Shown here: in pieces, positions 36,884-46,480 of the stretch
Layout: each line of letters opens with the position of its first letter
Position numbering within the stretch: position 1 is the stretch's first letter
IMG/VR virus record: IMGVR_UViG_3300030116_005659
Coordinates: 1 to 57,976 of that record
DNA from: a virus
Length of the DNA: 57,976 nt
Strand: one strand, 5' to 3'
Translations under genes and position numbers: made by a program
The notes under the pieces: generated by a model
Database searches by the model: none
What the model was told of the DNA's origin: nothing
What the model saw: the letters and a program-made list of their open reading frames with translations, nothing else

Positions 36884-37573
36884 ATGGCAACTTCAGGAAC
36901 AACTTCATTTGATCTCAATATTGATGATATCATTCAAGAGGCGTACGAAAGATGCGGAGGACGCACTAATAGTGGGTATGATTTAAAATCGGCAAGGCGA
37001 AGTTTAAATATTCTTTTCAGCGAATGGGGAAACCGAGGTGTTCATTTATGGAAGGTCGCCCTTCAAGAGCAGTTACTGACAAACGGGACAGCGACATACA
37101 CAGCACCGACAAATGCGAACGACATTCTAGAAGCGTATGTAAGCACAACTACGGGTCAATCTACCACTACCAACGATGTTTCTCTAACAAAGATTAGCAG
37201 AAGTGAATATGCTGCTCTACCAAACAAAGGTTCTAAAGGGCAGCCTAGTCAGTATTATGTTGATAGACAAACCACCCCAACTATAACACTTTATCAAACA
37301 CCAGATGCTTCAACATACACATATTTAAAATATTATTATCTTAAACGAATAGAAGATTCTGGAGCTTACACAAATACAGCTGATGTTGTTTTTAGGTTCA
37401 TACCTTGCATGGTAGCAGGTTTAGCGTATTATATAAGTATGAAAGTAAATCCACAGCTTACACAACAAAACAAATTGATATACGAAGATGAACTTTCCAG
37501 AGCATTGAATGAAGATGGACAAAGAACATCAGTGTATATTACTCCACAAACATATTATCCACAGGGGTTTTAA
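36884..37573 (+). CDS. Head-tail adaptor (connector) protein
   Basis: 229 aa. FDLNIDDIIQEAYERCGGRTNSGYDLKSARRSLNILFSEWGNRGVHLWKV is the helical N-terminal domain of podovirus adaptors; the middle is beta (EYAALPNKGSKGQPSQYYVDRQTTPTITLYQTPD) and the end again helical (DELSRALNEDGQRTS). The layout matches T7 gp11/P22 gp4-like connectors that extend the portal. A second adaptor-like protein is at 39334. Confidence 0.82.
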   Translation: MATSGTTSFDLNIDDIIQEAYERCGGRTNSGYDLKSARRSLNILFSEWGNRGVHLWKVALQEQLLTNGTATYTAPTNANDILEAYVSTTTGQSTTTNDVSLTKISRSEYAALPNKGSKGQPSQYYVDRQTTPTITLYQTPDASTYTYLKYYYLKRIEDSGAYTNTADVVFRFIPCMVAGLAYYISMKVNPQLTQQNKLIYEDELSRALNEDGQRTSVYITPQTYYPQGF

Positions 37574-38638
37574 ATGAAAGGTATGAGATTACATAGAAAA
37601 CAAGGTGGCGGTTTCATGACTGCACTTGAACAAACAAGACCTGATTTATACAAAACAATATCAAATTATAGGTCTAGGTTAGATGAAGACAAACAAAAAA
37701 TATTTGATAAAAGAGGTCAGATTCAATATGCTGCGTCACTAAACATGCCAGAAGAAATGAGAAAAGATTATTATGCAAGTATTGAAAAAGAATACGCTAA
37801 ACCAACTGAAGATCAATTCAAAGCTTTAGATAAATCTCTTGAATCAAAAACCTTTGTACCAACGTATAGATATTATAAACCACAGGCAACCACAACCACT
37901 AAAAGTGCTGACGAACCATTTGGTCCAACAACAGGGTATTATAGAAATCTTCAAAAAGAAATTGATGAAAAACAAAAATTTTTAGATGACTTGAAATTCA
38001 CAGAGACTAGAACCAGAACAGTTCCTCAATATGAAATGACAACTCTTCCTCCTGGATATGGATTAGCTGGTGGAAGACCAGCCCAAACTAAAATGGTCAC
38101 TGAATTACCTAAAGATGCTAGATTAACACAAGGAAATTATGGTGCACAGTTTTATCAAGCTCCAATGAAAGGTGCAAATTTTTATCAAGCAAATACAAAC
38201 CCGACATATAGAAGAGTAGGTAGTAAAAAAATTACAGAAAAATTTGAAAGACAAGCTAAAGCAGGAGACCCTGAATATGACAAGGCTTTTGCAGAATTAG
38301 GTAGACTTCAAACACGACACAAATATAGAAATCTTTACAGCACACCTAGTAAGTCTCAAATGACAGGTTCAAATATTTATGAAAAACTTGGAATGACTGG
38401 AACACCTACTTCAAAATTTGGTATGTTTGGCGTTCCTATGCCTACACCAACAACCCCTTTCGCTCAACCCATACCTTCGAGAGGGGGAGGGTTTGGTAAA
38501 CAACCCATAGTCACAGGGACTCCTTTCAATCAACCTATACCTTCAACTACTAACCCCACAATGCAGATGAATAAAGGTGGTGAAATAAAAGGAAAAGGCA
38601 AAGCTGTTCGAGGTTTTAAATTTGGAGGAATTAAATAA
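37574..38638 (+). CDS. Pro/Thr-rich virion-associated protein with KGG tail
   Basis: 354 aa, low complexity. N terminus helical (FMTALEQTRPDLYKTISNYRSRLDEDKQKIFDKR), then Tyr/Pro/Thr-rich repeats (YRYYKPQATTTTKS, PFAQPIPSRGGGFGKQPI, PFNQPIPSTTNPTM) and an end MNKGGEIKGKGKAVRGFKF-GGIK. It has no enzyme motif. Position between adaptor genes suggests a neck or tail accessory. Two PF(A/N)QPIPS repeats are visible near residues 295-325. Confidence 0.6.
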   Translation: MKGMRLHRKQGGGFMTALEQTRPDLYKTISNYRSRLDEDKQKIFDKRGQIQYAASLNMPEEMRKDYYASIEKEYAKPTEDQFKALDKSLESKTFVPTYRYYKPQATTTTKSADEPFGPTTGYYRNLQKEIDEKQKFLDDLKFTETRTRTVPQYEMTTLPPGYGLAGGRPAQTKMVTELPKDARLTQGNYGAQFYQAPMKGANFYQANTNPTYRRVGSKKITEKFERQAKAGDPEYDKAFAELGRLQTRHKYRNLYSTPSKSQMTGSNIYEKLGMTGTPTSKFGMFGVPMPTPTTPFAQPIPSRGGGFGKQPIVTGTPFNQPIPSTTNPTMQMNKGGEIKGKGKAVRGFKFGGIK

Positions 38639-39330
38639 TGGGATACGCTAGAGGTAAATATGCTCAAGCAATTTCAGACCGCTCTGGCATGGCTTTTCCA
38701 TACAATGAGATGGTTAAAGAATGGAATGGTTCTTTTGTTCATAAATCTGAATTTGAGGCAAAACATCCTCAGATAAGAAGAAAACATATTAAAGCTGATG
38801 CAATAGCATTAGCAAATGCAAGACCAAGAACACCTGATAATACAGGTGATTTTCTTTTATATATTACAAATGGTTTGCTCACAAATCCTGGTATGAGACC
38901 CACTGATGGTCAAGGTATTTTAGGCACAGAACTTACAAGCTATAGTGCAACAATGTCATTAGGAACTGTTAGTATTGTAAGCACAGATACTTTAACGACA
39001 CTGACCACAACCGTTGCGAATGTAAGTGGCAGTAATTATTATTTTATAGATGGTGTTCAGCAGAAAACCTTATCTTTCACTAGAGGTCAAACTTATAAAT
39101 TTGATCAGTCGGCTAGCACAAATGACAACCACCCACTAAGGCTTTCAACCACAAGTAACGGGACGCATGCCGGAGGTTCACCATACACAACAGGGGTGAC
39201 TACAAGTGGAGTGCCAGGTACGTCAGGTGCTTATACGCAAATAACTGTGGCAGGTGATGCACCAGATACTTTATACTACTACTGTTCTAATCATTCAGGT
39301 ATGGGTGGTACAATAAATATTTCAGGGTAA
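38638..39330 (+). CDS. Virion protein with C-terminal cupredoxin-like domain
   Basis: 230 aa. Residues 1-65 (YARGKYAQAISDRSGMAFPYNEMVKEWNG...) are a domain I recall in marine phage neck and tail proteins. Residues about 130-230 look like a cupredoxin: YYFIDGVQQKTLSFTRGQTYKF, NDNHPLRLS (His165) and YYYCSNHSGMGG (Cys216, His219, Met222). These are the four ligands of a type 1 copper site, with the C-x2-H-x2-M spacing of amicyanin. It may stabilise the fold with copper, or bind a surface. Start overlaps the upstream stop by one base. Confidence 0.72.
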   Translation: MGYARGKYAQAISDRSGMAFPYNEMVKEWNGSFVHKSEFEAKHPQIRRKHIKADAIALANARPRTPDNTGDFLLYITNGLLTNPGMRPTDGQGILGTELTSYSATMSLGTVSIVSTDTLTTLTTTVANVSGSNYYFIDGVQQKTLSFTRGQTYKFDQSASTNDNHPLRLSTTSNGTHAGGSPYTTGVTTSGVPGTSGAYTQITVAGDAPDTLYYYCSNHSGMGGTINISG

Positions 39331-39333
39331 ATT

Positions 39334-39984
39334 ATGGCAATAACTAATTCAAATTTTTTAACACAAGTACGTAATTATACAGAAGTGGATTCAAATGTTT
39401 TAACAGATAATCTTTTAGATGAATTTATAAGACATGTCGAGGTTGATATTGCAGGTAAAGTTGATTATGACGATTTAAGAAAATACTCAACTTCCAATAC
39501 GATTACTTCACAAAGATATCTTACAATGCCTTCAGATTTAATTTATTTAAGGTCTGTACAAGTAACAAATTCTGGAGTACGGACTTTTTTAGAAAAAAGA
39601 GATACGAGTTTTATATCAGAATATAATTCATCAGATGCAACAGGAGTTCCTAAATATTACGCGAATTGGGATGATTTAACAATTGTAATGGCGCCTGTAC
39701 CTAATGCCGAATACACAGTTCAGATTAATTATATAATAGACCCACCACATTTTGATTCATCTAACAATACTTATCTATCGACTTACCAAGAAGCTATGTT
39801 ACTCAATGGTGTTTTGAGTGAATGTTTCAGGTATTTAAAAGGACCAGCAGAGCTATACAAAGTGTACTTAGATAAGTATAATGAAGATGTTCAAGCATTT
39901 GCATTACAGCAAATGGGACAACGTAGAAGAGGACAGTATGAAGAAGGCGTTCCAAGATTGCCCATACCGTCACCTTCACCTTAA
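39334..39984 (+). CDS. Second adaptor/tail tube-like protein
   Basis: 216 aa. N-terminal helical domain (FLTQVRNYTEVDSNVLTDNLLDEFIRHVEVDIAGKV), beta middle (YLTMPSDLIYLRSVQVTNSG, DDLTIVMAPVPNAEYTVQINYI) and helical end (ELYKVYLDKYNEDVQAFALQQMGQRRRGQ). This order is that of phage adaptor proteins that sit between portal and tail tube. It is distinct from the 36884 gene, so the neck may have two rings. Confidence 0.75.
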   Translation: MAITNSNFLTQVRNYTEVDSNVLTDNLLDEFIRHVEVDIAGKVDYDDLRKYSTSNTITSQRYLTMPSDLIYLRSVQVTNSGVRTFLEKRDTSFISEYNSSDATGVPKYYANWDDLTIVMAPVPNAEYTVQINYIIDPPHFDSSNNTYLSTYQEAMLLNGVLSECFRYLKGPAELYKVYLDKYNEDVQAFALQQMGQRRRGQYEEGVPRLPIPSPSP

Positions 39985-42606: not shown

Positions 42607-44022
42607 ATGCCATTCATTTTAGGAGCCAACAGCGCAGCAGATACTGTTCACTCAGTGAGCCAATCAATTAGGTTTAACTCTGCTGATGATGCATATATGG
42701 CACGAACTCCATCTAGTGCTGGAAATAGAAGAACTTGGACATTTAGTTGTTGGCTTAAAAGAGGTAATATAACTTCAACAATGCAGCTATTCAATGCTGG
42801 TGCTGATGATAGTAATAACAGTAGATTTCAAATTAACAGTGATGATGTTATTTCATATGTTCACGCAGATTCAGGGTCAGTAACAGATCAAGTAAAAACA
42901 AGTATGAAAATTAGAGATACCGCTGCTTGGTACAATATCCAGCTTGTTGCTGATACAACGCATCCTGTTGACGAAGAAAGATTACGAATTTTTGTAAACG
43001 GACGAAGAATAACTGATTTGTCTATAACCGATTACCCTACTAAAGACTTTGATACAGATATAAATAACACTGAAGCTCATAATATTGGTAGATTATTTAG
43101 TGACACTCAACATCTTGATGGTTACCTTGCAGAAATTGTATTAGTTGATGGACAAGCACTATACCCTTCTAGTTTTGGTGAATTTAATAGTTCTGGTTTA
43201 TGGATTCCCAAAAATGTAAGTGGTTTGACATTTGGTACTAATGGTTTTTACATCAATGGAAGTGATGCAAGTGGAACTCCTGTGAAATTAGGAGATGATG
43301 AAGCGGGTAGTAATAATTACACTACAAGTGGGATGGAAGCAAATGACCAAAGAGCTGATACACCTACCAATAATCAGATTACATTTAATTTTTTAAATAA
43401 TCAAAGAAGTGGAGGAACATTATCTGAGGGTAATTTAAGATATGTTGGTCCAGGGACGAGAACACTTATTGGTTTAACAGCTAATGTACCGAGCACTGGT
43501 AAATGGGCAGTTGCATATACAGTTGACCAAGTAAGCACTACAGCAGGTTGGCAAATAGGATTATCATTTGCTGATGATGATGACTTTGGTGATGCGGCAG
43601 GGTCAAATGAAGATTTAGATATAGTAAGAATACAACCTAGTAGTTCAAATGCAGAAGTAAATGATAGAATTAACAATAGTTATATTAGTCCAAGTCCAGC
43701 TGTACCACTTTCAACAAGTGATGAATTTTGGGTTGTAGTTGATATGAATACAGGTAATATATTTTTAGGTATATATGATGCTAGTGATACGACTATGAAA
43801 TTTATAGCAGCCGATGGTGGCACAGATGGAGACCCTGCAAATGGTACTAATCCAACTTTAACAGCTACCACAACACAAATGCCAAGAGATAATGTTTTAT
43901 TTTCTGTTTGTTCAAAACAAACAAGTCAATTTATTAATTTAAAAAAATCATCAGAATTATCTGGAACAACACCAACAGGTTTTACATATTTTGAAAATGT
44001 AAAGGATTTAATAGGGAGTTAA
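42607..44022 (+). CDS. Receptor-binding protein with LamG-like domain
   Basis: 471 aa. SIRFNSADDAYMARTPSSAGNRRTWTFSCWLKRGN to HLDGYLAEIVLVDGQALYPSSFGEF is a LamG/concanavalin-type domain (residues about 20-210), followed by a SPRY-like part (GKWAVAYTVDQVSTTAGWQIG, DEFWVVVDMNTGNIFLGIYD). It likely binds a host surface sugar. Same modules as the next, larger protein, so the pair arose by duplication. Confidence 0.75.
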   Translation: MPFILGANSAADTVHSVSQSIRFNSADDAYMARTPSSAGNRRTWTFSCWLKRGNITSTMQLFNAGADDSNNSRFQINSDDVISYVHADSGSVTDQVKTSMKIRDTAAWYNIQLVADTTHPVDEERLRIFVNGRRITDLSITDYPTKDFDTDINNTEAHNIGRLFSDTQHLDGYLAEIVLVDGQALYPSSFGEFNSSGLWIPKNVSGLTFGTNGFYINGSDASGTPVKLGDDEAGSNNYTTSGMEANDQRADTPTNNQITFNFLNNQRSGGTLSEGNLRYVGPGTRTLIGLTANVPSTGKWAVAYTVDQVSTTAGWQIGLSFADDDDFGDAAGSNEDLDIVRIQPSSSNAEVNDRINNSYISPSPAVPLSTSDEFWVVVDMNTGNIFLGIYDASDTTMKFIAADGGTDGDPANGTNPTLTATTTQMPRDNVLFSVCSKQTSQFINLKKSSELSGTTPTGFTYFENVKDLIGS

Positions 44023-44023
44023 T

Positions 44024-46480
44024 ATGGCAGAACCAACGATACCAAATGGCGAAGAATATTTCTTTCCAATTATTTACGAAGGGAATGGTACTGGGCAAAG
44101 GGTCGGTAAGTTCGTACCTTTTACTGATAATGGTACAATTGCTAATAGTGTTATATTTAATGATGGGGATAGTGCTTACTTAGATAGAACTTTTGGTTCT
44201 GGTAATCAAAAAATATGGACATTTAGTTTTTGGGTGAAAAGATGCACACTAGGTGCGAGTCAAAGAATAATATCAAGAAGAACTGGGGGAGGTTCCACTG
44301 CTGCAACTATGGGTTTTAATTCATCTGACCAATTTAATTTTTATGACCCTTCAAATGGTGGTGAATATATAACTAATAGAACTTTTGAAGATACAAGTAA
44401 ATTCTATCATTTTTTAATACGATATGAAGCATCCAATGGAACAGCAGGCGATAGATTACAAATTTATGTAGATGGTGATTTGCAAACTTTTGGAACAACT
44501 GGATCAATAACTGATACTAATGGAAACTTTAACGCAAACGTAGTACACGCTATAGGTAAATATCAATATAATAACTCAGAATATTTTGACGGATATTTAG
44601 CAGAAGTAAATTGGATTGATGGCACAAACTATGGACCAGAAACCTTTGGCGTCACCGACACCTCAACCGGACGCTGGGTCCCCAAGACACTAAGTGGTAT
44701 CACTTATGGTACGAATGGTTTTCGTTTAACTTTTCAAAACAATAGTGCTGCTGCAAATTTAGGTTATGACTATCAAACGAGTGATAGATCCACAACTAAC
44801 GATTTTAGTGTAACTAATTTAGCCACCACAGACCAGACCACAGATAGTCCCACTCAAAATCACAACACATTTGCTGATGTTACTTCTGGTGCATCTTTGA
44901 GTGAGGGTAATTTAACAGTCAGTACAGGAACATCAGGTGGATTTGCACAAGCAGTAGCACAACCGAGTTTTGGGGTAAATACTGGCAAATGGTATTGGGA
45001 GGTAAAAATCACAACTGTTGGTGCTGGATTATGGGGTTGGAAAGATGACGGAAGTGCGGGAGGCTCTCAAGCTAGTACTACTGGTACACAAGGTAGTGGT
45101 AATTTTTCTGGTGCCTTATCAACTGGTGCTTCTGGACAATATTCTGCTGGGTCTTGGTTTGTTGACCACGAATACACTAAAGAAGTAAATTATACAACAG
45201 TTGAAGCAAATGATGTTTTAATGTTTGCTATGGATTTAGATAATGGAAAAGGGTTCGTCGGAAAAGCTGTTTCAGGCTCTGGAGGTACGACAGGTTGGTT
45301 TAACAGTGGAAATCCAGCTACTGGTGTAGGTGATGTTGGTGGTTGTCACAGAGCAAATGGAATAAATAAATTCTATCCTTGTGCGGTTAGGTCTGATTCT
45401 AATAGTGTTGGAGAATATAATTTTGGACAAAGAACTTTTGCAGCAACCCCGCCAGATGGATTTTCTGCTATACAACAAGACAACTTACCAGAAACATCTA
45501 GAGGTGTAAGTGGATTAGTGTGGGCTAAATCACGAGATAACACTGGTGCTACCTTACCAAGTCAACTTGTAGATAGTAGTAGAGGAGTAGGTAAAAGATT
45601 GATTTCTAGTGGAACAAATACGGAAGCATTTGATTCAAATCATTTAACTAAATTTTTAAAAGGTGGTTATGCAACTGGTGATATTAATGTTTTAAATACT
45701 GCCGATGATTCTATGGTAGCTTGGAATTGGGTAGCAAATGCGGGGACAACAGAATCTATAAGTGCTACAGGAGATATTGACATAGCCTCAACCGTACAGA
45801 AAAACACGACAGCAGGCTTCTCAATCGTACAATGGACTGGTAATAATGCTTCAACGGCAGGTATAGGGCACGGACTTTCTGCAGCACCAGAATGGATATT
45901 AATTAAAAATATGTCTGATACAACGGATTGGTGGGTTTATCATCATAAATTTACCGCTGATCAAAATGCAAAATTAAATGATACCATTAAACCAGGTAGT
46001 TTCGTAACTGGTAAATTTGATTATAGTGAAATTGATGCAACTAAATTTGAAGTCGCAAGTGGGGGTACTAATGCAAATTCTGTTAATGGGTCTGGCGATA
46101 GCATGATTGCGTACTGCTGGCATGGCGTTGATGGCTTTAGTAAATTTGGAAAATACAATGGAAACGGACATGCAAATGGTCCGTTTATTTATACAGGATT
46201 TTTGCCAGCGTGGATAATGTTCAAAGAAATAGGAAATAATCAAAACTGGCCAATTTGGGATGGTGCAAGGTTTATTTCAAATCCAACTAATAATTCTTTG
46301 TTTGCTGATTTAACGCAAGGTGATAATGGTTCATCAATAGATTTAGACGTATTATCAAATGGTTTTAAACCTAGAACTACTAATACTCAAATTAACAGAA
46401 GTACTGGCGTTTATGCGTACATGGCCTTCGCTAAAAACCCCTTCAATGGCGATGGGACTAGCTTTGTGACTGCGAGGTAA
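44024..46480 (+). CDS. Large receptor-binding protein with LamG- and SPRY-like domains
   Basis: 818 aa. SVIFNDGDSAYLDRTFGSGNQKIWTFSFWVKR to YFDGYLAEVNWIDGTNYGPETFG is LamG-like; TGKWYWEVKITTVGAGLWGWKDDGS and NDVLMFAMDLDNGKGFVGKA fit SPRY; the C-terminal SIVQWTGNNASTAGIGHGLSAAPEWILIKNMSDTTDWWVYH matches a domain (DUF7483-like) of marine phage tail fibres. Host-recognition protein, 2 bases after its paralogue. Confidence 0.78.
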   Translation: MAEPTIPNGEEYFFPIIYEGNGTGQRVGKFVPFTDNGTIANSVIFNDGDSAYLDRTFGSGNQKIWTFSFWVKRCTLGASQRIISRRTGGGSTAATMGFNSSDQFNFYDPSNGGEYITNRTFEDTSKFYHFLIRYEASNGTAGDRLQIYVDGDLQTFGTTGSITDTNGNFNANVVHAIGKYQYNNSEYFDGYLAEVNWIDGTNYGPETFGVTDTSTGRWVPKTLSGITYGTNGFRLTFQNNSAAANLGYDYQTSDRSTTNDFSVTNLATTDQTTDSPTQNHNTFADVTSGASLSEGNLTVSTGTSGGFAQAVAQPSFGVNTGKWYWEVKITTVGAGLWGWKDDGSAGGSQASTTGTQGSGNFSGALSTGASGQYSAGSWFVDHEYTKEVNYTTVEANDVLMFAMDLDNGKGFVGKAVSGSGGTTGWFNSGNPATGVGDVGGCHRANGINKFYPCAVRSDSNSVGEYNFGQRTFAATPPDGFSAIQQDNLPETSRGVSGLVWAKSRDNTGATLPSQLVDSSRGVGKRLISSGTNTEAFDSNHLTKFLKGGYATGDINVLNTADDSMVAWNWVANAGTTESISATGDIDIASTVQKNTTAGFSIVQWTGNNASTAGIGHGLSAAPEWILIKNMSDTTDWWVYHHKFTADQNAKLNDTIKPGSFVTGKFDYSEIDATKFEVASGGTNANSVNGSGDSMIAYCWHGVDGFSKFGKYNGNGHANGPFIYTGFLPAWIMFKEIGNNQNWPIWDGARFISNPTNNSLFADLTQGDNGSSIDLDVLSNGFKPRTTNTQINRSTGVYAYMAFAKNPFNGDGTSFVTAR

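Follow-up and report, generated by a model that had tools for sequence, protein, structure and literature searches.

A predicted cupredoxin domain with a putative type 1 copper site in a putative virion protein of a marine phage

One open reading frame in the window, by which is meant the whole stretch of viral DNA that was analysed (57,976 nucleotides; IMG/VR virus record IMGVR_UViG_3300030116_005659), encodes a putative virion protein in two parts. According to structural models, the C-terminal part (residues 116-230) almost certainly adopts a cupredoxin fold, and type 1 copper binding by this domain is probable; there are no copper-binding data, and the ligand geometry is unmeasured. Both fold and site are already known. 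What is new is their proposed use in the virion, their spread among marine phages, and the presence of His-Pro at the first ligand. No description of this domain in phage particles was recognised in those parts of the open-licence literature that were accessible.

Gene and genomic context

The open reading frame lies where the original prediction had placed it (38638..39330, + strand, like the parts of the protein and the two flanking adaptor genes given below), runs intact from ATG to TAA and encodes 230 amino acids plus stop. It is under purifying selection, with dN/dS about 0.07 against one related locus (L001) and about 0.01 against another (L317). The terminase encoded in the window shares 74% identity with the one from Pelagibacter phage HTVC023P, which groups the virus with the HTVC023P-type pelagiphages; these have been described as podoviruses of SAR11 (PMC9599517).

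Portal and major head genes lie upstream of the gene. It is flanked by two genes for SU10-type adaptor (neck) proteins of Pfam family PF24175, namely copy 1 at 36884..37573 (E=1.1e-9) and, directly downstream, copy 2 at 39334..39984 (E=1.8e-17), with one more ORF in between on the upstream side. The occurrence of two such paralogues in a single genome, with an interposed ORF of unknown family, is an observation in its own right. Elsewhere in the window (42607-46480), each of two adjacent structural genes contains a Laminin_G_3 lectin-like domain, and the second additionally contains DUF7483.

The original prediction regarded the product as a virion protein. At the level of the family, this is supported by fusions to T7-type and other tail fibres, by the position of the gene between neck-adaptor genes, and by mass spectrometry of purified P-SS2 virions, in which the relative gp080 was found with an average of 9 peptides (PMC2784084, Table 2). 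Gp080 is a degenerate stand-alone relative that has lost the Cys and both His; hence, there is at least one lineage in which the fold can be used in the absence of copper. It is highly likely that the domain is exposed on the virion, with its presence and position in this particular particle being inferred.

Cupredoxins usually work as electron carriers, and this usual role in electron transfer is the argument for a soluble protein that serves the infected cell, like cyanophage plastocyanin (petE), and is no part of the virion. Such a function is very improbable here: the N-terminal module of the ORF, MGYARGKYAQAISDRSG, does not resemble a signal peptide, the gene is surrounded by neck genes, and relatives are fused to tail fibres.

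Domain architecture and predicted fold

The N-terminal module (residues 1-52, AISDRSG...EMVKEWNG...KHPQ; 38638..38793) corresponds to PHROG 28581 and is modelled with pLDDT about 70-84 for residues 11-50. It is common to relatives that have no cupredoxin domain in the corresponding gene, and is probably a virion anchor, although this role is inferred. A low-confidence linker follows (residues 53-115; 38794..38982); its pLDDT of under 50 suggests that it is probably disordered. The cupredoxin domain (38983..39327) completes the protein.

AlphaFold2 was supplied with sequences from the window and related loci, without those from annotated phage records. For the full protein (38 sequences), residues 116-230 are predicted with confidence (pLDDT mostly 93-97) and the N-terminal module with moderate confidence; for the domain alone (85 diverse sequences), pLDDT is 97.2 and pTM 0.89. 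With either model, all 50 best Foldseek matches in the PDB are copper proteins with cupredoxin domains; they include nitrite reductase (type 1 domain), rusticyanin, pseudoazurin, plastocyanin, amicyanin, AcoP and multicopper oxidases; near the foot of the best 50 for the domain model, two chains of nitrous oxide reductase appear. The Foldseek matches have only modest E-values (3.3e-4 and 3.7e-4 at best), and the TM-scores against pseudoazurin, plastocyanin and amicyanin are about 0.5-0.6, which points to a distant branch of the cupredoxins. AlphaFold2 and Foldseek thus agree on a beta sandwich, which had previously been a guess, and assign it to the cupredoxin Greek-key type; the comparison with amicyanin and plastocyanin could have refuted the proposal by returning another fold, and did not.

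The relationship is also visible in sequence profiles. A single full-length sequence finds no match in Pfam or the PDB, and plastocyanin is reached solely by the family profile, for which it is the top PDB match (E=0.0018), aligned over its full length with the four ligands in register. The family profile also aligns without gaps to the CTLHPWM stretch of three-domain NirK. Against PF00127 (Copper-bind), the window copy scores 12.9 bits, below the gathering cut-off of 21.2 bits, and a distant copy (in L102) scores 24.4 bits, above it. The amicyanin model TIGR02657 of NCBIfam does not match the window copy; it matches five of 85 relatives (best E=3.8e-4).

Two further resemblances may be recorded. 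Pithovirus and Marseillevirus proteins that are predicted as 'beta-sandwich' (BFVD A0A481Z6J5 and A0A481YVH3) match the model in structure, and one copy (L235:1974-2255) scores above the Pfam cut-off of PF25489 (At5g54830-like domain, E=2.1e-7), which hints at a tie to a eukaryotic protein domain.

An immunoglobulin V-type domain carrying a fortuitous YYC-x2-H-x2-M word was considered as well, with antibody light chains among the weak profile matches and a PF07686 note on protein PHM1_104 of P-HM1 in its favour. This identity was rejected and retains virtually no credence. No immunoglobulin occurs among the 50 best Foldseek matches; the 96 intact copies contain exactly one cysteine each, which rules out the disulfide between the B and F strands of an immunoglobulin; and conserved His, His and Met residues would be meaningless in such a domain.

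The predicted copper site and its conservation

The four predicted ligands are found exactly where the original prediction had placed them. His165 (39130..39132) aligns with the first His ligand of plastocyanin; Cys216 (39283..39285), the sole cysteine of the domain, would provide the thiolate, His219 (39292..39294) the second imidazole ligand, and Met222 (39301..39303) the axial one. The last three fit the C-x2-H-x2-M spacing of amicyanin, again as proposed. Words similar to CSNHSGMGG, which the original prediction had mentioned for marine phage proteins, do occur there, with matches in 73 phage records and at least 600 in IMG/VR.

Copies of the domain were collected from IMG/VR, phage records and the window, giving 129 that are non-redundant at 80%. 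The C-terminal motif is complete in 102; the other 27 end ahead of it in the profile alignment and were left out of the ligand count, and several of them look like fully degenerate paralogues within the same cyanophage proteins. All of His-Cys-His-Met are retained in 96 of the 102 complete phage copies, at a mean pairwise identity of 40%. The five most conserved columns (n=102) are Tyr214 (39277..39279; 99%), Met222 (97%), Cys216 (96%), His219 (95%) and His165 (95%), followed by a sixth at 85%. Judged from this alignment, the pattern of conserved ligands and Tyr is far beyond chance, and a lack of ligand conservation among homologues, which would have refuted the proposal, was not encountered. 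Bias from the search pattern does not account for these phage counts, since 86 of the 92 copies that can be retrieved without a metal-motif pattern also keep all four ligands. The corresponding figure for genome-contig copies (75/76) is not used as evidence: one of the two search anchors was itself a Cys-His pattern, which biases the count.

Four copies, including P-SS2 gp080, lack the Cys, and in each of them both His ligands are gone too. A Fisher value of 1.2e-6 for this joint loss overstates its significance, as the four derive from only about two lineages.

Loss of ligands bears on whether the domain could be a mere relic, i.e. a module for adhesion or oligomerisation whose cupredoxin-like site is metal-free in the particle. 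The persistence of P-SS2-like and cyanophage copies after ligand loss would be in keeping with this. Nevertheless, a relic is improbable, given that 96 of 102 phage copies keep all four ligands, that these outrank all residues but one, and that ligands were lost jointly, whereas a relic would decay residue by residue.

The second co-ordination sphere

In the canonical state, as found in amicyanin, Asn follows the first His and Pro occupies Cys+2. The profile alignment shows the same for plastocyanin, with His-Asn at the first-His loop and Cys-x-Pro-His at the other. The phage domain differs at both positions. Pro166 (39133..39135) replaces the Asn that follows the first His in azurin and plastocyanin, and Pro is found here in 85 of 96 intact phage copies and in 71 of 76 genome-contig copies. 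At Cys+2, where plastocyanin has Pro, the window copy has Asn218 (39289..39291), and none of the 96 intact phage copies has Pro.

Proline is unable to donate a hydrogen bond from its backbone amide. Asn47 of azurin, next after the first His, bonds the sulfur of the copper-bound Cys through its backbone amide; in the Phe114Pro variant of azurin, one such hydrogen bond is lost and the potential drops by about 90 mV (PMC12071310). Phe114 is the counterpart of the proposed Cys+2 amide donor in the phage domain. As Pro after the first His cannot donate, the bond to the Cys sulfur must come from Cys+2 if the ligand assignment is right, instead of from the residue after His165. This is an inference drawn from sequence, and the geometry has not been measured. 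Having His-Pro in place of His-Asn could also perturb the copper site. To our knowledge, a second-sphere proline that has left the Cys loop and sits on the first-His loop instead has no precedent among characterised blue copper proteins.

The likeness to known systems is partial. Amicyanin and plastocyanin (PF00127) have the predicted fold and all four ligands in common with the phage domain, and amicyanin also has its C-x2-H-x2-M loop; however, these proteins are soluble carriers, whereas the phage domain sits in a virion and linker architecture, and their type of site is not matched at the two second-sphere positions. The extra cupredoxin of three-domain copper nitrite reductases (2dv6, 9cck) is another close system: 2dv6 is the best Foldseek match, and CTLHPWMKG in 9cck has a C-x2-H-x2-M loop without Pro at Cys+2, like the phage domain. 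The phage protein has neither the catalytic trimer nor the nitrite reductase domains of these enzymes.

Distribution and modularity

In the phage collection, the domain is found in cyanophages, pelagiphages, Methylophilales phages and roseophages, where the proteins that carry it are tail-fibre, virion structural, gp9-connector or hypothetical ones. Its PHROG matches include tail fibres and gp9 connectors, and it lies far from the anchor in the fibre proteins of cyanophages. Synechococcus phage S-TIM5 and Pelagibacter phage Baldr are examples of isolates with an intact copy. Protein PHM1_104 of P-HM1 (L093), annotated as immunoglobulin V-set (PF07686), contains copies of the single-cysteine domain, and its annotation may be a misreading.

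Among HTVC023P-type relatives, the N-terminal module can occur without the cupredoxin domain. At 12 pelagiphage loci, the domain is missing from the corresponding gene and is instead N-terminal in an ORF about 1.1 kb downstream; at 19 further loci with the N-terminal module only, no copy was found within the available stretch. HTVC023P and HTVC027P are among the many relatives of the latter kind without a copy nearby, so the domain is not essential in every pelagiphage. Taken at the level of gene arrangement, these comparisons indicate that in HTVC023P-type pelagiphages the domain is modular and exchanged between neighbouring genes.

Seven loci in SAR11 genomes (L351, L353, L354, L360, L362, L365 and L374), which are probably prophages or co-sorted phage, each contain a tail-fibre gene of T7 type. 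The encoded proteins begin with a T7 tail-fibre N-terminus and carry the domain towards the other end, at residues about 450-650. This N-terminus (PF03906) was identified by a Pfam match in L353 (E=1.7e-36) and by similarity in the other six.

Homologous domains also occur in cells. SAR86 bacteria and Marine Group II archaea encode lipoproteins that end in such a domain (L344:5293-6315, L336, L330, L363, L368 and L373); several are on long contigs and hence probably chromosomal. Like the phage copies, they have all four ligands and mostly His-Pro. They differ in being cellular, in their lipobox signal and in their partners, which are collagen-like or cadherin regions in some, the archaeal ones having collagen-like repeats. 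In a quick tree that combined phage with cellular copies, short alignments and sampling left the direction of transfer undecidable. The pattern of occurrence, as far as gene content can tell, is that of exposed, exchangeable surface domains.

These lipoproteins could be redox partners, which, together with the type 1 ligand set, would suit a redox step served by copper, in which the domain, at the host surface, senses or passes on an electron to trigger ejection or to disarm oxidants. This carries even less weight than a relic, since neither a partner domain nor an enzyme is fused to the domain or encoded next to it, and the residue preceding the Cys is variable.

A possible role on the virion

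The explanation preferred here, contact of an exposed, copper-loaded domain with the host surface, can be outlined as follows. The protein would be a neck or tail component of the HTVC023P-type pelagiphage particle, anchored by its short N-terminal module and bearing the 115-residue cupredoxin at the end of a flexible linker. The cupredoxin would hold one copper ion through His165, Cys216, His219 and the axial Met222. Since assembly takes place in a reducing, copper-poor cytoplasm, the domain is expected to be in its apo form inside the cell, and would take up copper from seawater after lysis. The bound metal would fix the ligand loops, and the loaded domain would then contact the host surface. 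The timing of metalation and the tight copper affinity that is expected derive from general knowledge of cupredoxins. As a whole, this explanation is evenly poised between being right and being wrong; that adhesion is the main role falls slightly short of even, with the adhesive role, the copper occupancy and the time of loading all inferred.

The main rival, ranked second behind host-surface contact, is that copper or another soft metal acts as a structural staple, which rigidifies a small beta-sandwich decoration domain in seawater without any part in host recognition. Constraint is strongest at the ligand columns whereas the remaining surface varies, the lone cysteine excludes a stabilising disulfide, and the domain has been inserted into many different virion proteins, all of which would fit. 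Yet degenerate copies without ligands persist, one of them in virions, so that the fold as such probably does not depend on the metal; a purely structural function thus remains possible but doubtful. Strong joint conservation of the ligands implies that the metal matters, and the survival of ligand-less copies implies that it is unnecessary for folding as such, which together lean towards a binding role and hence towards host-surface contact.

A metal in an exposed tail protein of marine phages has been proposed before, for tail fibres with iron-binding HxH motifs (the 'Trojan horse' or 'Ferrojan horse' idea; PMC11705849). The phage cupredoxin domain differs in the metal expected, copper in place of iron, and in its motif; HxH was sought in all 230 residues of the window protein and is absent.

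Implications

In its most general form, the proposal is that several unrelated types of marine phage display genuine type 1 copper centres on the particle surface, with the proline moved to the first-His loop. Seawater would supply the copper once the cell has lysed, and the centres would serve to engage the host surface, for instance the copper-handling machinery there. This is speculative and, on present evidence, unlikely to hold in full. A large phage-borne domain family whose copper site stays complete in tail fibres, baseplate connectors and neck proteins would be a new use of the cupredoxin, and a domain that dozens of genomes now list under 'hypothetical', 'tail fiber' or 'immunoglobulin' would gain a name that conveys function. 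It would suggest that abundant phages of cyanobacteria and of SAR11, the most numerous bacteria in the ocean, carry copper, and the iron 'Trojan horse' idea would gain a second metal. If virions do have copper centres loaded from seawater, they would constitute a biological copper ligand in the ocean.
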